DNA from: Dactylorhiza incarnata
Lineage: Eukaryota > Streptophyta > Magnoliopsida > Asparagales > Orchidaceae
Assembly (NCBI GenBank): GCA_033032865.1
Contig: JAWHQI010000185.1
Coordinates: 1,426,001-1,490,000 of the forward strand
Direction: 5' to 3'
Length of the DNA: 64,000 bases
Shown here: positions 28,213-56,209 of the stretch, piece after piece
Layout of the letters: each line of letters starts with the position of its first letter
Position numbering within the stretch: the first letter of the stretch is position 1
Program-made: the position numbers and the translations under genes
Notes under the pieces: generated by a model
The model's input: the letters and a program-made list of their open reading frames with translations, nothing else
Databases searched by the model: none
Told to the model about the DNA's origin: nothing

Positions 28213-29485
28213 TGATAGTTTATTTAGGATATAGTCTTAGTCACCTAGAGGGGGGGGGGGGGGGGGTGAATAAGTTTCTTTTATTTTAGGCTAGCTGTTT
28301 TCTGATTTTAGGTTAGTGAAGTATCAAGCACAGAAAACACACAAAGATTTATAGAGGTTCCTCAAGACAGGGTGTCTTGAGTAGTCCTCTTTCCCCCTTC
28401 CCCTTTCTAACAATGAGTTAGAAAAAGGTCAACTTCTCCAAACTAAGCTCAAAGAGCCTACATCACAGATCCCTTAGGATCTCTCATGTTTTCCCAAACT
28501 CTACCTCAGGCTCAACAACCCTACCTCATGCTCAACATCCCTACCTCAGGCTCAATAGCCCTACCTCAGATCACACAATGATCCTACACTCAAGCTGACC
28601 TCTCAGCTCTACATTTCAGGCCAAACAGCCCTACACCCTCAGGCAAAGATGCCCTACAAACTCAGAACAATTAAGTTCCTACAGAAGTAATAAGATGGGA
28701 TTACAATCAGAAGATAAAAGAGGTGGTCTTCTGCTTCTGAACAACTGTGGTTGCAGTCTTGAACCAGTGAGGAGTAGGAATGCCCCAACCTGATTCTTCT
28801 TGATCCTTTCCATCAGATGATGGACTGGATCAACTTGCTCTTTCTTGAGTTGAACAACAGGAGCAATCTCTTCTCTCCTTGCAAACTCAGGTAATCAAGA
28901 AGTGAAAGCTTCTTGGCTGCCGACAATAAACCATTAATCTTGTTCTTCTTTTGTGTGTTGGAGAGTAAAATGTAGGGAGAGTTGTTTACAAATCCCTAAC
29001 TTATTCTTTTTATACTTCAATGATCTTCAACGGCTCTTAGCTGTCCTTCTGACAGGTATGGGAGTGATTGGTGGACACTAAGAAGCCTTTCTGCATCTTG
29101 CGCCAAAAGCAGAACCCGACAGATCATTTTGAATCTATCTCAGCGGTTGGGCTGAGATGGCTTGCTGTCTCAACGACTACTTCTGTCCCGTCCCAGCAGA
29201 TTCGCTGAGACAGACAATTGTCTCAACGGTTTTCTTCTATCTACAGCTCAGCAGGCCCAGACACCTTCTCAGCGGCTCCTGGCCTTGTCTCAGCGGTTCA
29301 GCTGAGACTGAGAGCTTGTCTCAGCGGTTTTGATAGTAAACCTACTGAACATACATCACACCATGGTATGACCCTACCTTGCATGGTCAAGAAATAGAAT
29401 GGGGTTTATCAAATACAACTTGCACTTAGCATTGAGTGTGAAGCTTCTTCAAATCAAGGGAACATTGAGGGTCATTTTCCTAACA
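28213..29485 (-). repeat. Element C 3' LTR
   Basis: The minus strand begins TGTTAGGAAAATGACC after the purine tract AAATAGGGGGAGAT (29486-29499) and probably ends ...ACTATCA at 28213. It contains a 17-base G run (plus strand) at 28250-28266, a TATAAAAAG box (29006-29014) and a cluster of TCTCAGCGG dyads at about 29140-29335. The left end is inferred from where E's gag stops. Confidence 0.78.
29006..29014 (-). promoter_or_regulatory. TATA box of the C LTR
   Basis: TATAAAAAG on the minus strand, about 130 bp downstream of the nearest TCTCAGCGG dyads. Confidence 0.55.
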
Positions 29486-29876
29486 ATCTCCCCCTATTTG
29501 AAGAAGGCAGAACACCCTCAAATGCTAAAGTACATACCATATCAATATTTGTCAAGTTACTTCATAACATGATAATCATTATATCATACTCATATAAACA
29601 TTGTTATAATATTTAGGATAAAATTATAACAAAAGATATTCATGCCAAGTATGTTACAACCGGAGTTTATCAGTCCCATAATATGATTAAATACACATGA
29701 TAGTGCATCACAGATTAACTTATTCAATAATAGTAGAGTAAACTTTTAGCTAAAGCTCAGATTAGCTAATGACATGAGGTGATGACTTCAACATTCCATT
29801 CATAAGTAGTTCAGATAGAGTAATGAGTCATAGTTTAATTTGCATTCACATATTCACAAAATATTTATACATTCAT

Positions 29877-32501
29877 CTAGAGTTTTCGTTTCTTAGAAGA
29901 AGAGCATTCAGGAAAATCAGCAACTGCTTCTTTTCCTTTGACTGAAGCATCTTGGTTTGCTGCAGCATCCATGTCTTCAGCAAATACATCTTCTTGAACT
30001 GGAAGCTCCTTCTTTTCAGTATTGGCAGCCTTAATTTCAGCAATTCTTCTCTTGTTCTCTTGCCTTTGGAAATACAGAAATGGCTTTGGGATGTATCTAG
30101 AAGGCATTCTCTTTGGATTTTCTTTTCTTACTAGATTGGCTTTGAAAACTCTTTCTCTCTTTGAATTTCTCTCTAGATGCTTTATCCATTCTTCAGATGG
30201 ATAAAGCTTGTCAATATCTTTACAGACCTGACCATGGCTTATCCAGGCATTCAGAATTATGTCCTTGGAGTCATCACTCCATTGCTCATAGTCAGGGTCT
30301 CTATTTTGCACATCCCTTTGCTTGGCCATGAATTCTTCAACCAACATTACTTGTTCTCTTTCTCTCTCTTTTTCAAACTTTCATTTTGTGCAATGGCTGC
30401 TTGATGTGGGAAGTCCCAATCTTCTGCCCTGTTGACATCTAAGATAGGATGGTTCAGTGCTATACTGCCAAATAGGGTCTGGAAGACATTCTCAAAGTCA
30501 GCTTGAAGCACACCTTTTAACTTGCCTACTTCTTCATTCAGTTGGGAAGAGGTGGCTCTTGCACAATGGATTAAGAGACAGTGGCAGTTTCTGTTCTCAG
30601 CTCTTCCTTATACCTGTCAGCTTCTTCATTTAACTGCATAGCAGTGGAGTATGCATATTCTTGAAGATGATTGGCTGACTTCTCTATCATCTCATCTGTT
30701 TGACTGACATAATTTTTTACATATCTCATGTCCTATTCAGATAGCTGGAGGTATTTGTCCATAGATCTGAGGATTGTGTTCTGAGAGATCACAGTGTTCT
30801 CTGCTAGATCAAACCATTTGGTCATTTGTTTGTTCAGCATGCCAGTGTTCTCCTTGATATCTTGGAACTCAGTCATGACTGCAATCTTCACATTCACGAT
30901 GGACTGATCAATATAGTCTTTGACTGTTGAAACTGATTGGTCAACATAAATCTTCATAGAGTTGAGGTGATGTTCCAGCATTATGTGAATGGCATTCAGA
31001 ATATTCTCATTGGAAGAGGTGGAAATGGAGGCTTGCTGAGCAGTGATCATTGGGGCTTGAGGCCTTGGTGGACTTGAAGGAGGTACTATGTTAAGTATTA
31101 TCTGCACTGCAGGTTCAGGCAGTACTACAGCTGGAGGATCCATCATCACAACAAATGATGCTATATCATCAATGTGATCAGGGTGGACTTGATCATCATC
31201 CATCTCATCTTCATTACCATCATCTTGATTATCATTATTATCATGATCTTGCTCCTCCCCCTCAGAGAGAGCATCCTTGTCAGATGAGTCCAGGAAGGCT
31301 GGGACAATTATTTGGAGTTAGAGTGAAATACTTAGAAATTCTAAAGTTAAGATTGTTAGGCTTACCAAGAACTTCATCTTTCATAGCAGTTGGCTCTTGC
31401 TGCTTCTCCCCCTCAGTTGGATCAACTTGATTTGATGAGTCCAGAAATTCTAGGACAAGAATTGTGGTGTTAGATTTAATGATTTTGCAATGCTAAGGCT
31501 GGGTTTCTAAGACTTACCAATAACATGATCTTTGTCAGCTGATGGCTCTTGTGGCTTCTCCACCTCAGATGGGGCATCAGATGGGCCTTGTTGGTGTAAG
31601 TCCGAGAGAGCTAGAGAGTCATCAACGTTATGAGATATTCTTCTTTCAAGATTTAGAATTATTGTATCAAGCTCACTTTGTAATCCTTAGGAGAAGGAAC
31701 TTTGTCCTTGTCAGATGTGGCTCCTACACTTCCATCTTGATCATTGATACCATCCATGGGGGGTGGATCTTTTCCTTTTTCCACAGTGGGATAACTCATG
31801 GGAAGCACCCTGGTAAACCTTTCTAATGTTTTGATGTCCATTCTCTTGAGATAATGAAGGTTTACTCCTTTGGATTTGTTGAACTTGTCAGGGTGGGTTT
31901 GGAGTAGGTACATGGAATGAATTCTGCCCATGTTGGGTGCTTGCATACATTCTTTTATTCTTTGAAATAGGACTTGAACCCAAGAGGTTTTTCTTTTTAG
32001 TATAATCCTTGTCATGAGGTCAAACATGTATTGTGATATTGTGTCATGCGACCCTGGTTTGCAGAGGATAACTTTGCCCACAATATCTGACAGTAGTTTT
32101 CCGTTTTGGTTGAAGAATTTTCTTGCTAATGATCCAGTTTTGGTATCATTATACTCTGTCCATTTCAGAGCTTTCTTCTTATCTTTTTCAGAGATTTCAT
32201 CCTCCTCACTGGGACTGCAAGATGGGAGATGTAGACCTTGTTGTAGTTTTGTGGAGGTTATCTTTATTCTTTCTTCTCCTATCTTTGACTTGAGGCATGA
32301 CTTGGTAGTGGATAGCTTAGCATGGCCAAACCATTCCAGAATCTTAGTTCTAAGAATGATACAAGGTTCAGAAAGGAGAAATTACAGGCCTTGGTCTGCA
32401 AGAAGTTGAATTACTCCCTTGATATCTTCTGAAGCATGAGCAAACCCATCCCTGACTATCTCATAGCCTTCAAGAAGATCTTTAGAGCTTTTGGGAGCCA
32501 T
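29877..32501 (-). pseudogene. Element C third ORF (env-position ORF) with introns
   Basis: ATG at 32501 opens MAPKSSKDLLEGYEIVRDG; a TAA falls at about codon 40. The frame then runs clean through WTEYNDTKTGSLARKFFNQNGKLLSDIVGKV and SWVQVLFQRIKECM to SPKDYK (31677). Two short exons (31610-31518 and 31449-31366) and a longer one from 31298 follow, with GT..AG introns between them. The donor after the first exon is uncertain in phase. The long exon gives an acidic Asp/Asn stretch, a Pro-rich segment and a coiled-coil-like region to a stop at 30733. The frame can be followed about 55 residues further and then, shifted, over 30347-29877. The last part is charged and ends SSSKKRKL. No signal peptide or membrane segment is evident. 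The position matches the env-like ORF of sireviruses; the function is unknown. Confidence 0.7.
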
Positions 32502-32594
32502 TGCTGTGGTAGTAGAATACGCTGGGACAGAAGAGAAGGTGATTCATCTCGGCGGCTAGGAAAGAAGGGTCGTGTACCTTTCACTAATAAGATT

Positions 32595-32860
32595 GACTAT
32601 TTATATGGCCTAAGACTTAGGTATAATTAACCCTAATAATTAGATTTAATTGCTCTTATAATTGTAAGTGAAAATGGTTCAATTTGGGGTTGCATTTAGA
32701 CAAAGTATACTGAAACCAACCCGTCTCAGCGGAACCGCTGAGATGGCGACCTAGCCGCTGGGACAGAGCACCGTCAGCCGCTGGGACAGATTTAGCCATC
32801 TCAGCGGCTCAGCTGAGACTTTTCCCAGCTGTCTCAGCGTCTCAGCTAAAACGGACTGTT
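32595..32860 (-). promoter_or_regulatory. Promoter-like block between pol and the third ORF of C
   Basis: The dyad TCTCAGCGG-AA-CCGCTGAGA lies at 32724-32743, with further CTCAGCGG, CCGCTGGGACAG and CTCAGCTGAGAC copies up to about 32850. They are followed (minus strand) by TATAAATAG at 32598-32606 and the third-ORF ATG 97 bp later. The motif family and the order (dyads, then TATA) are the same as in the C LTR. Confidence 0.65.
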
Positions 32861-33042
32861 CTGTTTTAGCTGATCTTACAATCTAACCCTAAATTCATTT
32901 GAGATATGATTGTTTGAAGTCCTAACCATGTCACTAATAGAGTTGATGTGACAACATTTTAAGTTACAACAAGACATGCATTATATAATACATGATTGAA
33001 AGAGAGAAATATTTTACACTATTCAACATTTAACATTCCTAG

Positions 33043-34245
33043 TTAAATTTTGAAAGCATTAAACTTGGCCTCATCTAATGGATTTGTAGAGATATCAACA
33101 ACTTGATTGTCAGTGGGGACAAATTCAAGACATATATCTTTACATTCAACATGTTCTCTTATAAAATGATACCTTATCTCTATGTTCTTAGTCCTGCTAT
33201 GAGAGACATGATTCTTAGCAATAGAGATAGCACTGGATGAGTCACAATAAAGAGGATACTCACTTACCTTGAGGTTGTAGTCCTCTAACTGATGTTGAAT
33301 ACATAGTAGTTGTGTACAACAACTTCCTACAACAATGTATTCAGACTCAGCAGTGGATATTGCCACACTTATCTGCTTTTTGCTACTCCATGATATCAAC
33401 CTCCTTCCTAGGAATTGACAAGAGCCACTTGTGCTTTTCCTGTCTTCTTTGCAGCCTGCAAAATCTGCATCTGAAAATTCTGTTAGTTCAAAATCATTGT
33501 TCTTAGTGTACCAAAGGCCAAGATGCAGGCTGCCTTTAAGGTATCTCAAAATCCTTTTTGCAGCTGAGTAGTGAGATTCCTTAGGACATGCCTGGTACCT
33601 AGCACACACACATGTAACATACATAATATCTGGTCTACAAGCAGTTAAATATAATAGGGATCCAATGATGCACCTGTACATGGATTCATCAAAGGCCTTG
33701 CCCTTCTCATCCTTGTCCAGGGAAATGTTGGACCCCATGGGAGTTTTCAGTGAAAGCTGATTCCATCCCAAACTTCTTGATAAGCTCCCTAGTGTACTTA
33801 GTTTGAGAGATGAATATACCCTCATCAGAATGTTTCACTTGGAGGCCTAAAAAGTACTTGAGCTCTCCCATACTGCTCATCTCAAACTCCCCCTGCATTA
33901 GGTTGGCAAACCTTTTGCAGAGGTTGTCATCAGTAGACCCAAATATTATGTCATCAACATATATTTGGACTAGAAGACACTTGCCCCTTGTTTCCCTAAG
34001 AAACAATGTACTATCTATCTTTTCCCTCAAGAACTTGTTCTTGATGAGAAATCTAGACAATGTCTCATACCAAGCCCTGGGGGCTTGCTTTAAACCATAA
34101 AGAGCTTTCCTAAGTAAATATACGTGATTAGAGAAGGTTGGATGCACAAAACCTGATGGTTGTTCAACATATAACTCTTCCTTCAAGTCACCATTAAGGA
34201 AGGCTGATTTGCATCCATTTGATACACTTTGAACCTATTGTGGGC
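33043..34245 (-). pseudogene. Element C RT and RNase H
   Basis: RT in 34186-33707: [33 protein letters not shown] and catalytic [15 protein letters not shown], a SIRE/Maximus signature. A frameshift near 33750 moves to 33825-33043, which gives MYRCIIGSLLYLTACRPDIMY and RNase H: FSDADFAGCKEDRKSTSGSC, STAESEYIVVGSCC, CDSSSAISIAKN and HHFIREHV-type text. Another break near 34200 separates it from the start of RT. The stop is at 33043, followed by the promoter-like block. Confidence 0.9.
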
Positions 34246-34299
34246 AGCATAGGCAAGAAATAACCTAATTGCTTCTAACCTTGCAATATGGGCAAACGT

Positions 34300-35694
34300 T
34301 TAATCAAAGTATATCCCTTCTTCCTGTCTATAGCCCTTGGCTACCAACCTTGCATTATTCTTTATGATTGTGCCATTTTCATCTAACTTATTCCTGTAAA
34401 TCCATTTGGTGCCAATAATATTGTGTCCTAGAGGTTTTGGCACCAACTTCCATACCTTGCATCTCTTGAATTGTAGAAGTTCTTCTTGCATTGCTTGAAT
34501 CCAAAAGGTGTCGTAGTTGGCTTCTTCAAACTTCTTGGGCTCCATATGTGATAGGAAGCTCAAGAATAGGGCCTCATTATAAGCCCTGCTTCTGGTTAAC
34601 ACACCTGGATTCTGATCTCCAATTATCTGTTCTCTTGGATGATCCCTTAGATGTCTTATAGCTGTAGGCAATCTGTCCTCACCTTGCTGTACTACTTCTG
34701 CTGTTTCAGCAGTGTCTTCAGCACCATGGACCTCTTCCTCTTCAGGGATGGCTGCATCTGAATATGCTTTGCTACTGCTGGGTGTGTCTTGTACAGACAT
34801 CCTTTCCAAGTCCTTTTCATTCCCTGTCAAAATAGAAGAACTAGACCAACCCTTATTGATTAGGCTGGTCTCATCAAATACTACATACATATACTCCTCT
34901 ACAACATGAGTTTTCTTATTATACACTCTATTAGCTCTACTATATGAGCTATAGCCAACAAGAACCCCAACAATGCATTTTTCAGCAAACATTGTTAATT
35001 GAGATTTTCCATTGTTTAAAATGTAGCATTTGGAGCCAAAGATTCTAAAATATGAAATTGTAGGTTGTTTGCCTTTCAGAATCTCATAGGGGGTTATTCC
35101 ATGAACCTTATTGATGGAAACCCTATTAAGAACATAACATGCAGTATTGAATGCCTTAGCCCAGAAGTATTCTGGGAGTGAGGAGTCACTAAGCAATTTT
35201 CTTCCAGCTTCTATCAAGGTTCTATTCCTCCTCTCAGCCACACCATTTTGTTGTGGAGTCCTTGGGGAGGAGAACTCTTGGGTGATACCATATTCTTGAC
35301 AAAACCTTATCATGGCTTCAGATTGAAATTTTGTGCCATGGTCAGTCCTAGTCCTGACCACAACACATTGTAAGTCATTCTGAATTGCTTTGACATGATT
35401 TATAAAGACATTCAATGTATCAGACTTCTTCTTAAGGAAGAATACCCATGTATATTTTGAGTGATCATCAACAATCACCAAAGTATACAACTTTCCTCCT
35501 AGGATCTGAATTGGCAAAGGACCAAACAAATCCATATGCAAGAGATAAAAACATCTTTCAGTGTCTTTGGAGCCAATACTTTTAAAGGTGGCCCTTGTTT
35601 GCTTACCCATTTGGCAAGCATGACAGGGACCACTTTTAATGCATTTTAAATTAGGACTATTCCTAACAAGGTTTTTAGAGAATAGTCTATACAT
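34300..35694 (-). pseudogene. Element C integrase and RT start
   Basis: 464 clean residues. The end of the pre-integrase zinc region (GPCHACQMGKQTRATF), then integrase with HMDLFGPLPIQ, RTDHGTKFQSEAM and TPQQNGVAERRNRTLIEAG (D-D-E), a linker, then RT from FWIQAMQEELLQFKRCKVWKLVPKP to ARLVAKGYRQEEGIYFD. A TAA follows where relatives have Glu (YFDET). The frame lacks its upstream part because of decay near 35700-35800 and the DNA transposon at 35806. Confidence 0.9.
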
Positions 35695-35805
35695 TATCTT
35701 GTAGTTAATGTGAGCAAGTCTCTTGTGTCATTGAACACAAATAGACTCATTCTCATTAGCTACTAGACATACAGATGTAAGAGAATTACTGCATATAAAG
35801 TCTAA

Positions 35806-37052: not shown

Positions 37053-38852
37053 TGTAACACCCCAAATTCTGGAAGCAGTTTTGGGATGCTGGTTGCGTTC
37101 GACGAATGGCAGCCTGGCTGCGTTCGACGAACGGCAGCCTGACTGCGTTCGACGAATGACAGTCTGACTAAGTTTGACGAACGACCGCATGGCTGCGTTC
37201 GACGATCGGCCGCCTAGCTACGTTCGACGAACGACAGCCCGTTCGATGAATGCCTGTCAGTTCGTCGAAAGCTGTCCAGTTCGGCGGTTTTTGCGATACA
37301 GACCCATGATTTGTGATCATGGCCGTCAAATCCAAGGGTTTTAGATCCAATGCTTGGGATTTATTCCGGGATTTCTTAGGGTCTGACCATAGGAGTGTTT
37401 ATCCTTTTTATTTCTAAATCCGATCTCTCTTCAAGCTTGAGGAAGAGGAAAGCCGAGGAGGAAGAAGAAGACATCTTCTGCCATTGACGAAGCTCCGAAG
37501 CTCCGAATCGCGAGCCATTTTCAGATCTGGAAAGAACAGCCAGTTGCGGTTCTTTCTATCCGAGTGAAATCTCAAATCTATGGAAAACAAGAAAGCTCCA
37601 AGGGTAACGATCTTCTACTTGGACAAGTGAAGTCCTCCTTTTTATGGCATGTTTGGATGGAGAATCCCTCACAGATTGGTGGAGAAAAGGGAGTTTTCTA
37701 GCGGGTTGATCATTTTGATCCCCTTTGGTTACTTGCATTTAGCATCCAGAATCGTAGTACGGACATAAGCATTGTGTGTGAAACCCATCCGGACAGGTTG
37801 GTCTGGATTGGTGATGGCTATATTGTCGATTGTGCCGGAGAAGACTCCGTGATCTTGTATGTGTTATTTTCGGGTTTTGCGTATTGTTGAGTACTGCAGG
37901 GAGTCATGGAGTTAACCTTCAGGAAATACCCAAAGTTGTGGGCGGATCCGTTGATCTGTCACTACCGCCCGGCGTTAGGGCTAATGCCGGCGGTAGATCC
38001 CAGGGAGCTGTTTGTTGAGGTGTGATACCTCCTTTCGTTGCTCGGGCTGAGGTGAAGCCGTACCCGCATCGTGACGATTGATGCCGACGATTTGAGCATG
38101 GGCAAAGCTGATCCAAACCCGCTCCCATACCGAGTCGGTGAAGAGGTAGCTCCTAGGTGCACCGTAAGATGTTGGGATTAGTCTGTAAGATAAGATAGTC
38201 TTGGCGGTCGAAGCTCATTCAAACTCTTTGTTTCAGGAATTGTTAGGTGTGGCTCGGGGAGTACACCGTGAGAGTGCCTTGAGAGCACAAAATGTGTGGA
38301 CGTGCGTGTCAACGTTGGTGTTGATTGCTTATACATGTGGTGCTTGAATGCACCTTGACAATCTATGCCTATACTGTCTGCCTGCAGGGAAGGAGTACCG
38401 CCACCCCGTCTATAGGGGTGGGGTCGTTATAATATTGGTCAGCTTTAGCTGACCGGTTACTTGTTTCCACGTTTTGGTGGATCGTTGTTGCATGTGCAGG
38501 TGAGCCAAGCGGGAAATAGCTTGCTAGAGCTTATGCTGTGTTGGCCCTCGAAGGCCATCCTCCCCTCTTTTGCTTTCCTTAAATTGCCGGCTTGCATGCC
38601 GATGTATGTTTGAGTTTCAATACATTGTTCAATGTAACGCCTTAAGGCCGTAACTCTTTATTTCATTCCTGGGATAGTGGACAGTTCTAAAAGGTATTTT
38701 TAATCAAATGCTTCCTCTTTCGTTTTATTCACTCTGGTGTAGTTGTAGCTCTTTCTGTTTATCACCTTATAATGCCTAGCTAGTGTGTATAGTATGGCGT
38801 GCGGTCCCAGCCAGACCTACTGTAAAATTATTTGTACTGGCAGGGTGTTACA
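37053..38852 (+). repeat. Element F 5' LTR
   Basis: 1800 bp with a perfect 10-bp inverted terminus. It begins with a 25-bp tandem array. No confident TATA box. Chance ORFs only. Confidence 0.85.
37095..37244 (+). repeat. 25-bp tandem array in the F LTR
   Basis: Six units of 25 bp, each with a GCGTTCGACGAACG-type core (starts at 37095, 37120, 37145, then degenerating), followed by three partial reverse-sense cores (GTTCGATGAA, GTTCGTCGAA, GTTCGGCGG) to about 37290. Confidence 0.9.
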
Positions 38853-39076: not shown

Positions 39077-40234
39077 GGTGACTAGGAGTGGTGCGGGGTA
39101 GTCTCAACCCCGTAACACTGCTGAAAGTAGTGCATCCGCTGAGGTACCAGCGACCACTCCTTCTGCTGAGATGGTTAGAATGGTCGCTGAAGCGGTCTTC
39201 GCAATGATCAATAACCAAGCTGGACGGCTTGCACAACCTACTACTCCTATTCCAGAGGTGGCCCCAGTGTCTGTTACGACAGTGGAGCCGAGAGCGGAAC
39301 CTGTGGTAGAGCCCAGGGTGGAACCGAGAGTGGAACATGTAGCTGTGGGGCGAGTGCGCGACCAACAATTGAAGCACTTTCTAAGCTTCAACCCTCCAAC
39401 CTTCCTTGGGACCGAGTCCCCAACAGAGGCTGAGGATTGGCTGGCCATAGTAAAGAAGACCCTAAGGGCAACAACAACTAAAGAGGCGATGAAAGTCACC
39501 TTAGCCACTTTCCTTCTGAATGGAGAGGCAGGGCTTTGCTGGGAGGAACTGGAAGCGCACAAGTTGGACGGTAGAGTTATTACCGAGGTCTCGATTGCAG
39601 AGTTCACATGTCTGTTCCTCCAGAGGTTTATTCCCTCTGCCCAGAGCCGTGAATTGCAAAATCAATTTCTACGGCTAACTCAAGGCGACCGTTCGGTGGA
39701 TGACTACATGCATGAGTTCACGAGACTGAGTCGCTATGCGAGATCTTTGGTAGAAGATGAGGAAGATAAGATGAGTAAATTCTATGAAGGCCTTCGAGAT
39801 GAGTTAAGGCTGCTTTTGGCAGGCCCTATGACTCTTGGTTTTTAGGTTATGGTGCAAACTGCCAGATCACTGGAGCTAGATATGTAGAGAGTGCAACGCG
39901 CAAAAGGCCTCAGCAAGAAGCCAGAATTTCTCGCTCCGACCTCTCAAGTAAAGCCTGAGTTCAGGAAAAATAAGAGGAACTCTAGGTTCGTGGAACCAGC
40001 TCCTTCTAATGTTTCGGGAGCAGCTACTGTGCGGGGTCCTATCACGTGTTTCACATGCGGGAAGGTGGGACACAAAGCCCCGGTGTGTCGAAGTGGTCCC
40101 CCGAAAGCAGGAAATCGAGCGGTGGACTATGCTCATGCGGCGGGTTCATCTTATGCGGAGAAAGGCAAAGCTGCGGAGTCTTCTGCTTCCCAGCAAACTC
40201 CGACCCAACCAAGAGTCTATTCGCTTGGCCAATA
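39077..40234 (+). pseudogene. Element F gag
   Basis: An early stop at 39099 is followed by a clean frame to 39845: AMINNQAGRLAQPTTPIPE, then the Retrotrans_gag core NPPTFLGTESPTEAEDWLAIVKKTL, VTLATFLLNGEAGLCWEEL, LFLQRFIPSAQSRELQNQFLRLTQGDRSVDDYMHEFTRLSRYA and MSKFYEGLRDELR. Stops at 39845 and 39884 interrupt it. The same frame resumes to a CCHC knuckle, CFTCGKVGHKAPVC (~40050), and ends at 40234. Order and motifs are those of plant chromoviral gag. Confidence 0.88.
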
Positions 40235-40299
40235 AGAAGCCATCCGACAAAATGACGTCGTCACAGGTATAAAGTAAAATTTAGCTTTTACAGCTTAAC

Positions 40300-40772
40300 T
40301 TGATTTATATTGTATGTACGACTATACCTTTGTTGATGTGCTTTTAGGCTTCGTTCTAATCTTCAACTATCCGGCGAGATCTCTCTTCGATACAGGAGCA
40401 TCACACTCCTTCTTGTCTAAGGACTCCGTGTTGCGAATTAGAGTACCGTCTATCCTGGTGAAGGATAGACTGGAGGTAGTGCTGCCCAATGGATCTCGGA
40501 TGAGCGCAGATAGGTTGAGTCGTGTAAAGGTGCGGATTGGGAAACATGATTTCGACTTGGAAGCGTCACTACTACCACTAGCTGAGTTTGACGTAATCTT
40601 TGGCAAGGACTGGCTCTCGAAGCAGCGAGCATGCATCGATTGCAATTGAAAGGAGGTTACTCTGGGAAAGAACACCGGTGACGAGACCACATTTGTGGGT
40701 ATGCGAGGAGCAAGCAAGACGCTGATGTCTGCTCTCCAGGTGGTCAAGGCGGTGAGAAAAGGCGGGGAGTTG
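40300..40772 (+). pseudogene. Element F protease and start of RT linker
   Basis: Retropepsin-type protease: SLFDTGASHSFLS with D-T-G, LPNGSRMSADRLSRVKVRIG, and FDVIFGKDWLSKQRACIDCN in place of the usual I-I-L-G-M-D-W-L box. A TGA at 40648 (usually Arg or Trp here) stops it. The text continues as KEVTLGKNTGDETTFVGMRG and LMSALQVVKAVRKGGELL, the linker before RT, where G interrupts. Confidence 0.87.
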
Positions 40773-40773
40773 T

Positions 40774-41285
40774 TGATGGCGACGGCCACCATGATGAACA
40801 AATTGGCGATGAAGATAACGTCCATGGCGCACTGGGTGATCATGGGATAGTGGCGGAAGATGATGATGATGAGCCGCCGACCAAAGACTTACGGCGCCGT
40901 AGCGGTCACGACTACAATCTTCGCCCACGCAACAAGAATTTAATTAATTTATCTTGCTAGTTTATGGTCTGCGTTTATCCATTTATGTGGTTTGCTATTA
41001 ATTATTTTATTTCTGTCATTTTGAATTTGTGGTGTGCGTTTAGCCACTGTTATGGGCTGCTATTGGACTTTTGGATGTAAGCCTTATATAAGGCCAAAAC
41101 TCTATCTATGTTAGTAGAATATTATTGAGATCAATATTAAAACTTTTCCCCCCAAAACCTAAAGCTCCTCTCTCCCTCTTCCTCTCTCATTGCCGCCGCC
41201 AACAAGGGTTTTCCCCTTGCTTTTTTGGTTCGGCCGCCCCCTCTCTCTCTTCTCCCTTCCTCCCTATTCTCTTCTAAATACTATT
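40774..41285 (+). repeat. Element G 5' LTR, first part
   Basis: It matches 53974-54474 with scattered changes and a 19-bp difference near 40990. The TATA-type TTATATAAGG is at 41084-41093. It resumes at 48230 after element A. Confidence 0.92.
41084..41093 (+). promoter_or_regulatory. TATA box of the G LTR
   Basis: TTATATAAGG, repeated at 54271-54280 in the 3' LTR. Confidence 0.65.
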
Positions 41286-42611
41286 TGAAAGTGCACAATT
41301 AACCTCACTAGAATTCTTTAGAGGGGGGGGGGGGGGTGAATAGAGATTTAAAAATTATTTTGTGCAAAGTTAATATATATATGTGTATGATCACAAATTA
41401 GAGCTTCCCACACACCAACAAGAATTAAGCAAGAAAATAAAATAAATGCAAGAAAATAAATCACAGCACAACACAAGAAAATATAGTGGTTCCCCAAACT
41501 TTGGGTAGTCCACTCTTCTACCCCCTTGGTAGGAATTCACTATCTTGCACTGAGTCTTTCGATAAGGAGACTCTTAGAACCACCCTGAGTCTTTTGACAA
41601 GGAGACTCTTAGAACCAACTGAGTCTTTTGACAAGGAGACTCTTAGAACCAGTACACTGAATTTTTTGGAGAGAGATTCTAAAAACTCTTTTACAATGTT
41701 TAAGTGAGAAAGAAAGAAAGGAGAAGAAATAAAAACAAAAAAGAATCTTCTTCCTAGAAAGAAGATTGGAAGCACAAGAAGTGAATTGAATCTTTTTTCT
41801 ATAGAGAGAAGAAGATTTGCAGCCTTTCTCTCTTTGTGAGAGCTATCAGATTTTGCAGCAGTATGACTTCAGAAGCAGAAGAAGAAGAAGTGCTTGAATG
41901 TTGCTGCAGTGCTTTTTCTCAATTTCTCTCTTTTCTCTTGGGAGCTTTTCCTCTATTTCAAATGTGTGTGGTAGATCACTCTTTTTTATTTTCTGCCGAC
42001 CTCCTCTTTATTTATAGCTCTGTTAATTCAACATAATACTATAAGAGGATAATCAATTAGCAGTTAGAGAGAATAGAAAGAAAAAAAATGTTTCCATAAT
42101 GTTTATTTCTGTAGAAGGAAAGAATGAATTCTGATTTCAAATAATATCCAAAATAGAGTTAATCAGATTAGCCAAGAATCAAATAGAAGGAAAGAATGAT
42201 TCAGAACGGCTATAAAATATTAACATTATTCCATACAAATCAGATTTACTGAAAGAAGGAAAGAGATCTGGCGCATATTTAAGTCTGTCAAATAAATCGA
42301 CGTGCGTCGATTGCCATTCGACGCAAGCGTCGAGTACATCCTGTCTGGACGTCGAGAGGTTAATAAGAAAGGTGCGTCGACTAAGGTGCGTCGACTTCAC
42401 TAGTTGCGTCGACTAGAAATCAGAGTAACGTCGACAACACATACGTCGAAATCTTCCTAGAGTTACTTTGACTTAATCTGAAAGAGACATCGATTACATT
42501 TCGACGTTGCGTCGAACACTATTCGACGCATATTTACTTAGCTTTGTTTTTCATTCTTGGAATTCATATTTGACTCATTTTCAGGGCTTAAGAGAAATCA
42601 TTTTCCCAACA
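41286..42611 (-). repeat. Element A 3' LTR
   Basis: 1326 bp, minus strand TGTTGGGAAAATGA...GTGCACTTTCA, preceded by purine tract ATGGGGAGAT. It contains TATAAATA (42009-42016), a 14-base G run (41332-41345, plus strand) and GTCGA-rich dyads at 42290-42531. Confidence 0.93.
42303..42531 (-). promoter_or_regulatory. CpG dyad cluster in the A LTR
   Basis: TGCGTCGA-N7-TCGACGCA occurs exactly at 42303-42325 and 42509-42531. A variant of the same geometry is at 42487-42509, and several TGCGTCGA half-sites lie between. The cluster is upstream of the TATA box on the minus strand. The other LTR keeps both exact dyads. Confidence 0.85.
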
Positions 42612-42782
42612 ATCTCCCCATATTTGTCTTAACCCTTCTTAGAGAGAAATTAGCATATAATTAACATAGCAAAGCATTTGTAAAGATAATGAAGATTTCA
42701 CACAATCAGAAGAGAATATATAAACAAACTTCATGTTCAGACCAATCACAAAGTAAAGTATGTGAAACATTGTTTTCAAGTA

Positions 42783-43916
42783 TTATTCAGGAGGAGTAGG
42801 AGGAGTTTTTCTTTTTCTCTTGAATACTATTGTGGATTGCTCTTTCCCAGTAGCAGGTGATTCCCTCAGCTCCCCCTGGGTCTCAGCTCCCCCTGCCCCT
42901 GACTCCTGAGCCCCTTCTTCAGCCATCACAACATCAACTTCATTTCCTTTTTCAGTTTCAGCAGCTGGTTCATTTTCTTCTTGATTTATAGCAGTATTCA
43001 ATTCTTTCTCACCTTCTTCCTTTTCAGCCTCATTTTCTGCTCTGCTTCCCTCCCCTTGCAGTAGTACCACTTGGTCTGCAGCCTCTCTTGCTATGCTGAG
43101 TACCTCAATTGTTTGTTCATCAATATGGAGCTCAGGTACTAACTCATTCCCAATTGTCTTGAGCAGTGCAAGACTGTCAGATTTTGAAGAAGAAGGGGAT
43201 TTGTGAGAAGGAGATTTAGGATTGGAGGGCTGATTTTCATCTAGATTCTCCCCCTTCTTGACCTTCTTGGCCAAGGAGGTTAAGAAAGACTTAGTCACTC
43301 TAGAGGAAGAGAGAGATGACTTCAGATCTTGCACAGAGGCACTGACCCCATCTATTTGGGTGTGCATGTGAAGGATGGAGGAATGAATCTGGGAGCAATG
43401 CTCATCTAGCATTGCTTGGAATCTTTGAGCTGTGGATTGTATGCATTGGGTGATGAGAGCCTCAGTGGATTCAGATGGTTCATGGTGTGAGAGATGATGA
43501 GGTGATGGTGGAGGAGGAGGAGAGGGTAGTCTATTATCTGGATGAGGTGTATCTGAATGAGGAGGTGGAGGGATAGAAGAAGGCTGAGTAGGTGATTGAG
43601 GAGGTATTGGTGAGGATGATGCTGGGACAGAAGATGTGATTGTTTGAGAAGGAGGAGGATGAGCAGGAGAGATAGGAGGAGATGGAGTATTTTCAGGGAT
43701 GGAACCAGGCTTGGGAATTTGCCTGGTCCATTTGGAGAAGAGGGCAATGGACATCCTCTTTCCAAGAGGGATAGGAATTCCTTTTGACCTGCAGAGATCA
43801 GGGAAGGAATAGAAGAGAACCTGACTCATGATTCTCATATAAGCATTTTCCTTGTGGGAATATTTGGAGGCTATCATTTTGAGAAGACAGCTGACCCAAT
43901 CCACCTTCTTCTTCAC
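42783..43916 (-). pseudogene. Element A third ORF, N-terminally truncated
   Basis: 377 residues open from the deletion junction: VDWVSCLLKMIASKYSHKENAY ... GIPIPLGKRMSIALFSKWTRQ, then a long Pro/Ser-rich region, a helical stretch (QRFQAMLDEHCSQIHSSILHMHTQIDGVSASVQDLKSSL), a Lys/Glu-rich part, and the end IVFKRKRKTPPTPPE. The first part resembles the third ORF of C (SWVQVLFQRIKECM ... KGVNLHYLKRMDIKTLERFTR), as do the order Pro-rich then helical and the basic C-terminus. About 180 N-terminal residues present in C are missing. It lacks a clear signal peptide or membrane segment. Function unknown; it occupies the env-like position of sireviruses. Confidence 0.75.
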
Positions 43917-43917
43917 A

Positions 43918-44766
43918 GAAACTACAAATCATCTGATTCTCAAATTCAGTCCCATGGTCACTTCTTATAATTGAAACATTTGTGTTGAACTCAGATTGAA
44001 TCTGTCTTATGAATTTTGAGAGAATTTTATGGGTTTCAGATTTAACTCCTAGAAAGAATACCCAGCTAAACCTAGAATAATCATCAACAATGACCAAGGT
44101 ATAGGATTTTCCACCTAAGCTTTGAGTGGATATGGGACCAAAGAGATCCATGTGTAGTAAGTATAAAGACCTGGGAGAGTCATCCTTACCAATGGGTTTG
44201 AAGGATGATTTGGTTTGCTTTCCTAGTTGGCAAGGTCTGCATGGAGAATCCTTAGAGTACCTACCCTTTGGTAAGCCTCTGACTAGGTTATTCTTAACTA
44301 GTTTACTGATTGTTTTGTAGTTTAGATGACCTAGTCTCCTATGCCATAATTCATTTTTATCAATAATATTGTTGAATAAGCAAACTTCTGTGGGTGAAGA
44401 GCTAAAGTCCACTACATATACTCTCCCTTTTCTAATTCCATTTAGTACTGTAGCACCAGTCTTGATATCTATAATATGGCAGAATAGTGTAGTGAATTTT
44501 ACCTCATACTTACCATTCTCACATATCTGACTTATACTTATCAGATTGTGTTTTAGTCCTTTGACTACTGCCACATTCTTGAAGGTGACTTTCCCTTCTT
44601 TGAAATCTCCAAATCCCTTAGTTTGGCCACAGCTAAAGTCTCCAAAGGTTACTGATGGTCCAAGTCTATCCACAAAGTTGATTAATAGGTTTTTGCAACC
44701 TGTCATGTGCATGGAGCATCCACTGTCCAAGTACCACACCATCCTGGAGATGTGATACATCTGCAC
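43918..44766 (-). pseudogene. Element A protease and truncated integrase
   Basis: Protease VWYLDSGCSMHMTGCKN (D-S-G) near the start, then FKNVAVVKGLKHNLISISQ, the pre-integrase zinc region ELWHRRLGHLNYKTISKLV ... PCRPCQLGKQTKSSF, and the integrase core with HMDLFGPISTQS and RSDHGTEFEN (first two acids). About 10 codons later the frame crosses the deletion junction and reads nonsense of the third ORF in another frame. The catalytic Glu, RT and RNase H are absent. The pol frame differs from gag and starts 20 bp after the gag stop. Confidence 0.9.
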
Positions 44767-44786
44767 ATAAAAGTTTAAACATTAGT

Positions 44787-46814
44787 TTAGACCCTGCTGA
44801 GCTGGGGTCCCTTTCTCTCATTAGTAAAAGATTTAATAAAAGAATAAGAGGGTTTTTCAGGATATCCTTCCTCCTTATGGGGTACTGGCTTATCATACCA
44901 ATCTTCTTGGATGATATCACAGAAATAGTGTTCATAATAGAAGGACATGGATTGAGGGACCTGTTTGGAAACAAAAAATTTTCTGTCTGATTTATTGCGT
45001 CGATAGGGATTCGACGTAGACTTATGGTTGCGTCGATATGAATTTGATGTAGGTTTCTGGTTGCGTCGATATGAGGTCGACGCTTCCTTCATTCTGAGTC
45101 TACTTTTAGTCGAAGCATGTGAGAGATTACGTTGAGTGGAGGTCGACGCGATTTGGTGTATGCGTCGATTAGAAATCGACGCACGTGGATAATAATTCGA
45201 CATATGTTCAGAATTTTTGTGAGGATACTTTCCTAAGATTCCTTTATCTGTAATGGGATTAGGTTCATTAAAAACAGTGGTTGTTTCTGGACCTACTTGT
45301 GATCTAATTCCTGCTAGATGATTCTCCCTAGTGAATTGAATGGGATGTTTCCAGACAGGTTTGCTGAATGTTTGTGATTTAGATGCTTCATTAGTATTCA
45401 GCTTTAGTTGTCTAAATCTATCAGTGAGATTCTCAGAGATGTTCTTGAGCTTCTGACCTCTTCCATTCAGAGAGTCCTCAAAGGCTTTAGCCTTTGCCAG
45501 CTCTTTCCTTAGTGTTAGATTTTCTGAATGGATTTTGTCTAATTCCTTCTTTGAGAGCTCTTGATTGAGCTTATAGTTTTCATAATGTGTATTCACATGT
45601 TTGAGATTTCTTAATTCAATTCTTAATTCTTTTACTTCTTTTTCAGATTTGATTAGATCTAAACAGAATTCTTTGAAATCTTGTTTGAAATCAGTAGAAG
45701 AGAAATCTATATCATCAAGTATATTTACCATAGATGTATCATCAAGCTTCTCAGTGGCCATCAGACAGGTTTCCTCTTGCTTGACCTCTTCCTGATCATT
45801 GTCTGATGAGGTACTTCTTTCAGATTCTGAATCACTCCAAGATTGAGCAATGAATCCTCTTTCTTTCTTTTTCTTCTTTAGATCTGTTCTTTTCAGATCT
45901 TTCTTAGTGCTGTTCTCCTTAGGACATTCAGGTGCAATATGTCCAGGTTTCCTGCAAGAGTAACAGATAATCTCTTTAGTAGGTGTTTTATTATACCTGG
46001 TTTTTGAATCTCTTCCTCTGGATCCTTCTGTTTTGATCCACCTCTTGAACTTCCTAGCCAGGAAGCTGATTAGTTCCTCATCACTAGTAGATGGTTCACC
46101 TTCAACAGCTTTCAACGCAACACTCTTTTCTTTTGAGAGTGGAGAGGCCTTTTCTTTCTCAGCTCTGGTTTTCAACAGTTGTTCATAGGATTTTAATTTA
46201 CCCAACAAGACATCTGTTGATATTTCTTTTTGACTTCTGTAGTCTTTGATTGGCCAGATTCTTGAGTCCCAAGAGCTAGGAAAGCAAGTTGGCAATTTAT
46301 CATTTATCTCAGTGAGAGATATGTCCTTCTTAAGTGTTCTCAATTCATTGACTATGATGCTGAATCTTGAATACATGTCAGCAACACTTTCACTTTCTTT
46401 CTTTTGGAAGTTTTCATATTGGGAGATCAGTAGTGCCTTTCTATCCTTTTTCTCATCAGCACTTCCCTCTACCATTTTGGTGAGAGCTTCCCATACTTCC
46501 TTAGCTGACTCACAATCAACAATCTTTTGGAAAATTTCATCTGAGAGGGTTGAGACTAGGATATTCATAGCCTTGGCATCATGTCCTTGGGCTTTCTTCT
46601 CATCTTCTGTCCATTCAGCTCTTGGAACAAGTGTTTCAGTCACTTTTCCACTTGAATCCTTCCTGAATGGCTTGGGGGGACCTATCAAGATCACATTAAA
46701 CAATTCATCATCAATAGAGTTTAAATAAATTCTAATTCTTGTTTTCCAAAGTGCAAACTTTTCCAGGTTGCAAATTGGTGGTCTGGTGGAAGCATAATCT
46801 TTGATTTGTGCCAT
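44787..46814 (-). CDS. Element A gag (intact, 675 aa)
   Basis: ATG at 46814, 96 bp inside the 5' LTR edge, opens MAQIKDYASTRPPICNLEKFALWKTRIRIYL, the sirevirus gag start also seen in E. The capsid (UBN2-type) region covers about residues 10-230 (LLISQYENFQKKESESVADMYSRFSIIVNELRTL). A CCHC knuckle, CYSCRKPGHIAPEC, is at about 284-297, followed by a Lys-rich and acidic linker and coiled coils at ~385-480. About residues 540-610 hold an 11-residue repeat with YRRN cores (SYRRNQKPTSN, SYRRNHKSTSN, PYRRNK). Gag forms the particle that packages element RNA. It is the only uninterrupted element protein in this window. Confidence 0.9.
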   Translation of the reverse strand: MAQIKDYASTRPPICNLEKFALWKTRIRIYLNSIDDELFNVILIGPPKPFRKDSSGKVTETLVPRAEWTEDEKKAQGHDAKAMNILVSTLSDEIFQKIVDCESAKEVWEALTKMVEGSADEKKDRKALLISQYENFQKKESESVADMYSRFSIIVNELRTLKKDISLTEINDKLPTCFPSSWDSRIWPIKDYRSQKEISTDVLLGKLKSYEQLLKTRAEKEKASPLSKEKSVALKAVEGEPSTSDEELISFLARKFKRWIKTEGSRGRDSKTRYNKTPTKEIICYSCRKPGHIAPECPKENSTKKDLKRTDLKKKKKERGFIAQSWSDSESERSTSSDNDQEEVKQEETCLMATEKLDDTSMVNILDDIDFSSTDFKQDFKEFCLDLIKSEKEVKELRIELRNLKHVNTHYENYKLNQELSKKELDKIHSENLTLRKELAKAKAFEDSLNGRGQKLKNISENLTDRFRQLKLNTNEASKSQTFSKPVWKHPIQFTRENHLAGIRSQVGPETTTVFNEPNPITDKGILGKYPHKNSEHMSNYYPRASISNRRIHQIASTSTQRNLSHASTKSRLRMKEASTSYRRNQKPTSNSYRRNHKSTSNPYRRNKSDRKFFVSKQVPQSMSFYYEHYFCDIIQEDWYDKPVPHKEEGYPEKPSYSFIKSFTNERKGPQLSRV
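44996..45204 (-). repeat. 33-bp tandem dyad array inside A gag
   Basis: Units start at 44996, 45029, 45062, 45095, 45128 and 45161, exactly 33 bp apart. Each holds a left arm like TGCGTCGA, a 7-base spacer and a right arm like TCGACGCA; the copy at 45161-45183 is perfect. A further decayed right arm lies at 45197-45204. Arms and spacer length are those of the LTR dyads. On the minus strand the array encodes the YRRN repeats. Confidence 0.9.
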
Positions 46815-46897
46815 ATGATAAAATAGTTTTGAAAAATATATATATGAGAGGTAGGATCTTTTTGATCAAGGAGTTATCCTTTTTAGATCAACCTGCC

Positions 46898-46907
46898 TCT
46901 GATACCA
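46898..46907 (-). other. Element A primer-binding site
   Basis: Plus strand CTGATACCA next to the LTR edge at 46910, i.e. TTGGTATCAGAG on the element strand. Confidence 0.88.
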
Positions 46908-46909
46908 AT

Positions 46910-48224
46910 TGAAAGTGCACAATTAACCTCACTAGAATTCTTTAGAGGGGGGTGAATAGAGATTTAAAAATTATTTTGTGCAAAGTTAATATATATATGT
47001 GTATGATCACAGATTAGAGCTTCCCACACACCAACAAGAATTAAGCAAGAAAATAAAGTAAATGCAAGAAAATAAATCACAGCACAACACAAGAAAATAT
47101 AGTGGTTCCCCAAACTTTGGGTAGTCCACTCTTCTACCCCTTGGTAGGAATTCACTATCTTGCACTGAGTCTTTTGATAAGGAGACTCTTAGAACCACTC
47201 TGAGTCTTTTGACAAGGAGACTCTTAGAACCAACTAAGTCTTTTGACAAGGAGACTCTTAGAACCAGTACACTGAATTTTTGGAGAGAGATTCTAAAAAC
47301 TCTTTTACAATGTTTAAGTGAGAAAGAAAGAAAGGAGAAAAATAAAAACAAGAAAGAATCTTCTTCCTAGCAAGAAGATTGGAAGCACAAGAAGTGAATT
47401 GAATCTTTCTTCTATAGAGAGAAGAAGATTTGCAGCCTTTCTCTCTTTGTGAGAGCTATCAGATTTTGCAGCAGTATGACTTCAGAAGCAGAAGAAGAAG
47501 AAGTGCTTGAATGTTGCTGCAGAGCTTTTTCTCAATTTCTCTCTTTTCTCTTGGGAGCTTTTCCTCTATTTCAAATGTGTGTGGTAGATCACTCTTTTTT
47601 ATTTTCTGCCGACCTCCTCTTTATTTATAGCTCTGTTAATTCAACATAATACTATAGGAGGATAATCAATTAGCAGTTAGAGAGAATAGAAAGAAAAAAA
47701 ATGTTTCCATAATGTTTATTTCTGTAGAAGGAAAGAATGAATTCTGATTTCAAATAATATCCAAAATAGAGTTAATCAGATTAGCCAAGAATCAAATAGA
47801 AGGAAAGAATGATTCATAATGGCTATAAAATATTAACATTATTCCATACAAATCAGATTTACTGAAAGAAGGAAAGAGATCTGGCGCATATTTAAGTCTG
47901 TCAAATAAATCGACGTGCGTCGATTGCCATTCGACGCAAGCGTCGAGTACATCCTGTCTAGACGTCGAGAGGTGAATAAGGAAGGTGCATCGACTAAGGT
48001 GCGTCGACTTCACTAGTTACGTCGACAAGAAATCAGAGTAACGTCGACAACACATACGTCGAAATCTTCCTAGAGTTACTTCGACTTAATCTGAAAGAGA
48101 CGTCGACTACATTTCGACGTTGCGTCGAACACTATTCGACGCATATTTACTTAGCTTTGTTTTTCATTCTTGGAATTCATATTTGACTCATTTTCATGGG
48201 TTAAGAGAAATCATTTTCCCAACA
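46910..48224 (-). repeat. Element A 5' LTR
   Basis: 1315 bp, near-identical to 41286-42611. Its TATAAATA is at 47622-47629. The G run is 6 bases here against 14 in the partner LTR. Confidence 0.93.
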
Positions 48225-48229
48225 CTATT

Positions 48230-55580: not shown

Positions 55581-55683
55581 GACACGGGAGCTAATGCCTG
55601 GCGTTAGGGTTAACGCCAGCGTTACGCATCGTGTCTGGCAGTTGCTGAAGTCATGCAAAAAGACTAGACCGTGATAGAACAAA

Positions 55684-56006
55684 TTTTCGTCGAACGGAAC
55701 TGATTTCGCCGAACGGAACTGATTTCTCCGAACTCGCCTTCGTCGAATGCACCCTTCATCGAACGGAAAAACCGCCACCATCAGGATCGTGCAAACCGCC
55801 AGGAATGTGACAAAACAAACTTTCGTCGAACGGAACAATTTCGTCGAACGGAAACACTTTCGTCGAACGGAGCTCAACATTCGTTGAACGCAGATTCTCA
55901 TTCGTCGAATGCAGCCTGTCAAGTGCAAATTCGTCGAGCGCATGAATTTTCGTCGAACGGAGTTCCTCGTTCGTCGAACGCAGGTTCCATTTGTCGAATG
56001 CAGCTT
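55684..56006 (-). repeat. TTCGTCGAACGG array in the B LTR
   Basis: 14 copies or variants of a 12-bp unit (TTCGTCGAACGG or ...TGC) at irregular 13-50 bp spacing, upstream of the TATA box on the minus strand. The core is the reverse complement of the F LTR repeat core. The start of a matching array is visible in the other LTR from 63904. Confidence 0.9.
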
Positions 56007-56209
56007 CCTTCTCAGCAGTTTTCTTCACAATAGAAGTTAACGCGGGGCGTTAACAACTAACGCGGGGCGTTAGCTCTCTTTCCAGAGAATCCTCTGTACA
56101 TAGGGTTATTTAACAATAGTACCTGCACACTTATAAACACAAGCAAGATCAAAGACATAGTGTGATTTGTTATTCTCAAACTTAGAGATGTGGAACACAA
56201 GCTCCAACA

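Follow-up and report, generated by a model that had tools for sequence, protein, structure and literature searches.

A cluster of the LTR palindrome within gag of a Sirevirus-type element suggests a sequence that is both protein code and DNA control site

The gag reading frame of element A, a minus-strand Sirevirus-type Ty1/copia element without RT/RNase H, contains an array of the same palindromic motif that occupies U3 of its LTRs. The element was analysed within the window, the whole 64-kb stretch of Dactylorhiza incarnata DNA under study. The motif is common to both locations. The array keeps the gag frame and occupies the 3′ portion of the gene, ∼200 nt upstream of both the gag stop and the pol frame, and both a distinct codon choice and nearly all CpGs of the element interior are confined to it. 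This suggests that the gag array is both protein code and DNA control site. With a probability of approximately 0.6, it represents one more cluster of RM-type boxes belonging to the element itself, which may function as an internal control site. The array analysis covers one genomic copy of element A, with relatives compared as protein.

The LTR pair of element A differs by 23 mismatches over 1315 aligned columns (Table 1). The copia-type gag of ∼660 aa with a CCHC knuckle expected of a Sirevirus corresponds to the 692-aa frame, and the other Sirevirus features were identified by eye. The terminal polypurine tract (PPT) is joined to a conserved attachment site, the junction with the 3′ LTR reading ATGGGGAGATTGTTGGG in the sense direction. 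Multiple PPT copies are present in the linker, two sense CAGGGGGAGCTGAG being located at 42865-42896, and an inverted repeat surrounds the PPT/3′ LTR junction, in which sense GGGTTAAGA before the PPT is partnered by TCTTAAGCC in the 3′ LTR (8/9) and by TCTTAACCC in the 5′ LTR (9/9). A poly-C integrase signal, sense CACCCCCCTCTA, is observed ∼35-45 nt before the LTR end. RT and RNase H were not found among the Pfam domains of element A, and ORF3, presumably 'env-like', has no Pfam match at E 0.01.

Table 1. Positions of element A features and motif copies in the window.
Feature	Position	Strand	Detail
Element A 3′ LTR	41286..42611	-	1326 bp; TSD CTATT at 41281-41285
Element A 5′ LTR	46910..48224	-	1315 bp; TSD CTATT at 48225-48229
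gag reading frame	44787..46865	-	stop to stop 692 aa; Retrotran_gag_2 and one CCHC zinc knuckle (zf-CCHC)
pol piece	43798..44781	-	Pol_BBD, gag_pre-integrs, rve
ORF3	42783..43928	-	reading frame
Polypurine tract	42612..42621	-	adjoins 3′ LTR; sense ATGGGGAGAT/TGTTGGG; by eye
U3 motif zone, 3′ LTR	42290..42540	-	13 CGTCGA cores, 27 CpG, o/e 2.20
U3 motif zone, 5′ LTR	47904..48154	-	13 CGTCGA cores, 28 CpG, o/e 2.16
gag array zone	44990..45205	-	216 nt; 21/22 interior CpGs, o/e 2.25
Exact dyad, 3′ LTR	42303-42325		pattern scan
Exact dyad, 3′ LTR	42508-42530		pattern scan
Exact dyad, 5′ LTR	47916-47938		pattern scan
Exact dyad, 5′ LTR	48121-48143		pattern scan
gag unit 1	45161-45183	-	exact dyad
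gag unit 2	45128-45150	-	3 mismatches
gag unit 3	45095-45117	-	3 mismatches
gag unit 4	45062-45084	-	1 mismatch
gag unit 5	45029-45051	-	3 mismatches
gag unit 6	44996-45018	-	1 mismatch

A scan of the whole window for the dyad pattern TGCGTCGA-N7-TCGACGCA, allowing ≤3 mismatches, detected 10 matches, compared with a shuffle mean of 0.06 and a largest value of 2 in 100 shuffles. A sequence-only reading of this DNA had proposed two exact dyads kept in both LTRs, a third exact dyad in gag and six gag units at exactly 33-bp spacing. The LTR dyads are indeed exact and identical in both LTRs, although the second starts at 42508 and not 42509, and the scan recovered both the third dyad and the spacing, with one unit exact and five carrying 1-3 mismatches. 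The array also lies in the gag frame as proposed, but the YRRN repeats attributed to it are encoded by 3/6 units only, and S-x-x-x-R-R by 4/6. Each LTR contains 2 perfect dyads, a number that stays the same when ≤3 mismatches are allowed, and 13 half-site cores; in gag the corresponding counts are 1, 6 and 8. Six consecutive half-sites in the 3′ LTR (42350-42444) have the same orientation and all are without a partner. U3 and the gag array have the 13-mer ACGTGCGTCGATT in common as their longest identical stretch, longer than in shuffles (mean 8.8, maximum 11, n = 100). CGTCGA is absent between 42524 and 44997, the stretch preceding ORF3 being deleted in element A, and no clear TATA box was noticed by eye past the gag array.

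Synonymous recodings of the array, using codon usage from the rest of gag, reproduced it in 0/3000 cases. The best recoding reached 2 mismatches (1/3000) and 2966/3000 lacked any unit with ≤3 mismatches, compared with six in the real array, whose closest unit has 0 mismatches. The gag dyads are thus commoner than codon use predicts, the opposite of what was named beforehand as grounds for abandoning the idea, and the earlier view that chance sharing is implausible agrees with the 10 matches against 0.06 expected, the recodings and the shared 13-mer. Arginine is encoded by CGN at 10/12 positions in the array and at 0/32 in the remainder of gag (Fisher P 2.7e-8), serine by TCG at 5/13 and 1/63, and alanine by GCG at 3/4 and 1/25, respectively; as the units arose by duplication, their codons are not independent tests. 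For pairs with the same residue, the codons match in 25/42 cases within the arms and in 10/24 cases outside them, which is a weak difference. The 4.3-kb interior of element A contains 22 CpGs, 21 of which are located within the 216-nt array and 19 inside dyad footprints (binomial P 1e-26), while 20000 recoded arrays average 1.8 CpGs and never exceed 8, vs the real 21. The 251-nt U3 motif zone accounts for 27-28 CpGs in each LTR, leaving 2-4 for the remainder, and CpG o/e is 2.16-2.25 in the motif zones vs 0.00-0.14 in other segments of element A. We infer that the gag array is under selection at the DNA level.

Retention of the array for its basic repeat peptide, as an RNA or nucleic-acid binding tail with the dyad a by-product of codons, is unlikely but has evidence in its favour. 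Alignment reaches the array in 2/13 relatives only, P0001 and P0002, whose gags are 45 and 43% identical in the alignment to that of element A. S-x-x-x-R-R occurs four times in element A and three times in P0002, where the copies are spaced by 11 residues, and P0001 has two copies separated by 21 residues, in each case exceeding shuffles of the last 150 residues (0/20000 for element A and fractions of 0.0006 and 0.0024 for P0002 and P0001, respectively). In place of the repeat, element C, P0004 and P0012 carry another CCHC knuckle in the direction of the C-terminus. Foamy viruses similarly possess arginine-rich gag tails instead of zinc knuckles. A role of the peptide by itself leaves unexplained the identical dyad in U3, the CGN codons found only in the array and the confinement of CpG. 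Two wider protein searches scored the best 7992 and 7984 candidates by shared words, and the P0001 tail as query had P0001 as its sole match. Viral contigs yielded no relative for either the pol piece or the gag alignment, and prokaryote genomes none for the gag alignment; these collections are not plant genomes.

The dyads could alternatively form hairpins in the genomic RNA that serve its packaging or dimerisation, gag/pol recoding or siRNA production, a reading we consider quite improbable. Both the array and U3 fold better as RNA than shuffles (z -4.25, 0/200 and z -2.75, 2/200, respectively), but any palindrome yields good folding. A conserved stem is reported for the gag/pol boundary of Sireviruses, an inverted repeat at the gag end as in element A; in the portion of the source concerned with it (PMC5009743) the stem is a single 27-nt boundary motif, whereas the array is located ∼200 nt upstream. 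The gag/pol boundary piece of element A itself folds weakly better than shuffles (z -2.23, 6/200). In maize Sireviruses, palindrome arrays in the LTR regulatory region are small-RNA hotspots (Bousios et al. 2016, as summarized in passages of PMC5311732 and PMC10760457), and element A shares such palindrome arrays in the LTR but has its motif in gag as well. Across 8 distinct copies, 0 pairs changed on both sides and 84.4% of cells are paired, compared with 84.9% with shuffled partners; the six gag units retain 8, 6, 5, 7, 5 and 7 of 8 paired positions. A DNA site is therefore favoured over an RNA hairpin, because arm covariation is absent, half-sites in U3 are unpaired and most changes break pairing, and the hairpin as a preserved feature is unsupported in these 8 copies. 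Of the roles listed in the sequence-only reading, a protein site thus appears better supported, while the RNA hairpin is weakened by covariation, pairing and half-sites alike.

Similarly doubtful is an accident in which a U3 piece entered gag by template switching or recombination and then became a functionless in-frame minisatellite. Consistent with this, the 13-mer common to U3 reaches beyond the arm, the 33-bp period is frame-neutral and 5/6 units are imperfect; against it, the arms are 79-81% identical between gag units while spacer and linker have fallen to 41% and 38%, respectively. The array does not look recent, because the arms outlast spacers and linkers and the S-x-x-x-R-R layout is present in P0001 and P0002 despite their divergence. 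Anti-silencing sites read by the ORF3 product, on the analogy with VANC drawn in the sequence-only reading, are highly improbable: short family-specific motifs repeated over the element, here in control region and body, are common to VANDAL and element A, but VANDAL is a DNA transposon, element A is copia and ORF3 is without a Pfam match.

The reading as a cluster of RM-type boxes can be compared with Sirevirus RM boxes, which are palindromic, CpG-rich and located in LTRs and before ENV (Bousios 2010, PMC2829016). In the parts of that paper drawn on here, RM clusters occur in LTRs, in the linker, where 77/79 precede ENV, and at the ENV start, two CpG islands are predicted in pol, in Osr9 and Osr8, and the function of the boxes is left open. 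Like RM boxes, whose sequence varies by family, the motif of element A is repeated in the upper half of the LTR, in a zone 71-321 bp from the start of the 1326 bp LTR, and its clusters coincide with CpG islands as judged by CpG o/e. Unlike RM boxes as presented in those parts, the core is CGTCGA/TCGACG and not CGG-CCG, only 2 perfect dyads are present per LTR, TATAAATA lies ∼280 bp beyond the zone vs ∼37 bp, and one additional cluster is found in gag, which is not listed there as a location. Tnd-1 (ACAATCGATTGT) is an RM exception there, with a TCGA core rather than CGG-CCG. RM boxes are defined by at least 8 palindrome copies per element, a count which in element A depends on whether perfect dyads, dyads with ≤3 mismatches or half-site cores are taken. 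The motif is RM-like, not canonical RM. As such palindromes are described as RM boxes in the parts of PMC2829016 considered, the LTR motif is largely known and the cluster within gag is the new part, a parallel that the sequence-only reading does not draw. Del LTRs also have a CpG island at the LTR 5′ end, but Del is a gypsy lineage and a coding-region array is not among the features in the sections of PMC4029996 describing it.

In line with the RM-type reading, element B of the same window, copia by its pol domains, has a palindrome both in a zone presumed to be LTR and ahead of its ORF3; these two zones contain 26/36 CpGs of the region 28900-35750, and its four ORFs 4 CpGs in 3528 nt. The longest stretch common to the motif zones of elements A and C is 9, compared with a shuffle mean of 9.1, in a test which is blunt, element B's own two zones just equalling the shuffle maximum of 12; a host factor common to A and C is unsupported at this chance level. 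Sites of the TGCGTCGA type at 6253-6491 look unrelated, as the surrounding DNA is GC-rich and precedes the gag of a gypsy element (Retrotrans_gag 7061-7885), and two dyad matches in viral contigs were taken as chance, the ∼1 kb around each being GC-rich and not LTR-like. A literature search with the motif strings returned no plant retrotransposon paper among the matches listed.

In the mechanism we propose for the gag array as a cluster of RM-type boxes, these boxes would be CpG-containing DNA sites, composed of the half-site TGCGTCGA and the N7 dyad, which otherwise fill U3. One stretch of gag would encode the basic S-x-x-x-R-R repeat peptide and simultaneously retain the DNA motif. A sequence-specific nuclear protein, host or element-encoded, could bind the half-sites in U3 and gag, and the gag cluster may serve transcription towards pol, either as an enhancer or promoter within the element or as a patch protected from methylation. 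The array probably has a regulatory role, while the binding protein and the transcriptional effect are speculative. An internal transcriptional role was proposed earlier for RM clusters before ENV. Tentatively, a Sirevirus subgroup may keep the gag tail repeat as protein code and as a family-specific RM array, so that the coding array would track the LTR motif of its family and provide a control region inside the element, ahead of pol, where CpG has otherwise been almost entirely lost. The SSN[GVA]..RR-type peptides of the relatives are what TCGTCGA-N7-TCGACGA would encode, and both arms would therefore have changed together.

An RM-type cluster sharing a reading frame provides a clean test, as synonymous codons separate DNA-level from protein-level selection. 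Furthermore, an element nearly free of CpG except at the motif sites would make these sites unusually legible for CG methylation or for protection from it.

CpG confinement to the gag array of element A, a minus-strand Sirevirus-type Ty1/copia element analysed here as one copy, is a new result. The interior of the element (4298 nt) contains 22 CpGs, with 21 located in the array and one at position 46116, and 19 of the 22 lie within dyad footprints. CpG o/e reaches 2.25 in the gag array but is 0.02 on the N-terminal side of gag and zero throughout the pol piece, the linker/ORF3 part and the gag tail, while in the LTRs values of ∼2.2 are observed in the U3 motif zones and 0.00–0.14 in other segments. 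Recoding of the array peptide in 20000 trials produced a mean of 1.8 and a maximum of 8 CpGs, compared with 21 in the real array. CHG trinucleotides in gag are close to expected levels, CAG 25 vs 28.3 and CTG 32 vs 30.2. The N-terminal side of gag (45206–46814) has a single CpG in 1609 nt, yet CAG and CTG occur there approximately as expected.

Coordinates of element A and of other elements in the window
Feature	Position	Strand	Remarks
Element A	41286-48224	minus	
Gag of element A	46865-44787	minus	
Gag array	44990-45205		
Pol piece of element A	44781-43798	minus	Pol_BBD, gag_pre-integrs, rve
ORF3 of element A	43928-42783	minus	
U3 motif zones	42290-42540, 47904-48154		
Element B	27600-35800 (stretch)	minus	copia by rve, RVT_2
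Element B motif, presumed LTR zone	29137-29330		
Element B motif, upstream of ORF3	32517-32860		
Presumed gypsy LTR stretch	37053-37290		
Gypsy-type gag	39102-39845		downstream of presumed gypsy LTR
Protease	40299-40649		downstream of presumed gypsy LTR
Element C LTR stretch	55670-56090		

CpG purging is not unique to element A, because o/e is also 0.00–0.07 in four ORFs of element B, which looks like a Sirevirus, with values of 0.25–0.99 in 11 chosen ORFs from other elements in the window. Thus, it is the concentration of CpGs in a gag array, not their purging, that is special to element A. Mismatches between its two LTRs touch CpG in 3 of 9 cases in the motif zone vs 2 of 14 elsewhere, so that, although these are few sites, CpG loss probably continues after insertion. 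CpG abundance in the motif zones suggests, again from few sites, selective maintenance of these CpGs in the lineage.

The dyad TGCGTCGA-N7-TCGACGCA is present as two exact copies per LTR and one in gag, where five further units carrying 1–3 mismatches follow steps of exactly 33 bp. The total of 10 matches vs 0.06 expected bears out the sequence-only reading, in which LTR and gag share the dyad and the gag units are 33 bp apart; one of its coordinates was off by one. Codon chance does not explain the gag dyads. When the array peptide was recoded 3000 times with codons drawn at their frequencies in the remainder of gag, no unit whatsoever was observed in 2966 recodings and the best retained 2 mismatches to the dyad (1/3000), vs six units in the real array. 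Codon choice differs between array and outside for Arg as CGN (10/12 vs 0/32), Ser as TCG (5/13 vs 1/63) and Ala as GCG (3/4 vs 1/25) but not significantly for Thr as ACG (1/6 vs 0/35), counts which, given that the units arose by duplication, are not independent draws. Same-residue unit pairs use an identical codon in 25/42 cases for arm codons vs 10/24 elsewhere, a weak difference.

The preserved feature appears to be a DNA site rather than an RNA hairpin, a role that had been put forward for the dyads from the sequence. Array RNA folds better than shuffles (z −4.25), but good folding is expected of any palindrome. Among eight dyad copies, six from gag and two from one LTR (the identical copies in the other LTR being left out), no base pair changed on both sides, and the paired fraction of 84.4% is not above that of shuffled partners (84.9%); sense-strand gag units pair at 8, 6, 5, 7, 5 and 7 of 8 positions. 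In addition, each U3 contains 13 CGTCGA cores, of which, in the 3′ LTR, six are consecutive (42350–42444), in a single orientation and without a partner, the other seven having inverted arrangements.

Element A has LTRs of 1326 and 1315 bp, differing by 23 mismatches over 1315 aligned columns, and the TSD CTATT at both ends. RT and RNase H were not detected in its interior, nor was a Pfam match to ORF3. A PPT/att junction, repeated PPT-like runs, an inverted repeat at the PPT/LTR junction and a poly-C run close to the LTR end, all identified by eye, resemble those described for Sireviruses in PMC2829016. The LTR part also resembles RM boxes, the palindromic, CpG-rich Sirevirus motifs of that paper. 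In contrast, the CGG-CCG core is absent, as in Tnd-1, the published exception, and RM copy number is reached only by including half-sites or imperfect dyads in the count. A motif cluster in gag was not found in the literature searched, including the accessible parts of PMC2829016, PMC5311732, PMC5009743, PMC3601003, PMC10760457 and PMC4029996, and an earlier mention is possible.

Motifs are also observed in neighboring elements. Element B carries a palindromic motif, GTCTCAGCGG..CCGCTGAGAC, in its presumed LTR zone and upstream of its ORF3, and its four ORFs (3528 nt) have only 4 CpGs. The presumed gypsy LTR, with TGTAACACCCC at 37053 and no second LTR found, shares the 16-mer CGTTCGTCGAACGCAG between its motif array and that of the LTR of element C, a copia element and thus of a different superfamily; in 100 shuffles the shared stretch had a mean of 9.3 and a maximum of 13.

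Identity between gag units is 79 and 81% in the arms, 41% in the spacer and 38% in the linker. Protein searches returned at least 5 and at least 11 gag relatives, at least 13 distinct, with Platanthera, Lotus and Tanacetum named among the matches listed. Among the 13 listed, only alignments of P0001 and P0002 (Platanthera zijinensis) cover the array, those of the other 11 extending no further than residue 456 of 692. Their identity to element A gag is 45 and 43%, respectively, in a multiple alignment and 38 and 37% by BLASTP. In the array region S-x-x-x-R-R occurs three times in P0002, at steps of exactly 11 residues, and twice in P0001, 21 residues apart; a single match near the C-terminus of P0005 is taken as chance, and none is present in P0004, P0012 or element C. 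Judged from the peptides SSNG, SSNV and SSNA, a TCGTCGA-type dyad may encode the P0001 and P0002 repeats. A second CCHC zinc knuckle is found in P0004, P0012 and element C and is absent from the gags of element A, P0001 and P0002. The array occupies the C-terminal region of gag in which the former three, all Sirevirus-type, carry this knuckle.

The gag array may have a regulatory role. Whether RM boxes regulate Sireviruses is posed as a question in PMC2829016, where RM clusters before ENV are taken, without test, as support for an internal promoter. The gag array is located ∼200 nt upstream of the gag stop codon and the pol frame, a position which would fit this idea if applied to pol. The gag and pol frames do not overlap (44760–44790), and a stop occurs in the pol frame 2 nt past that of gag. 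Ahead of the first pol ATG, the sequence as read directly shows the splice-acceptor-like CTAATGTTTAAACTTTTATGTGCAG, along with a branch-point-like CTAAT. On Sirevirus gag/pol, the review PMC5009743 concludes that 'Puzzles awaiting resolution abound'; one possible answer would lie in a transcript that is internal or spliced.
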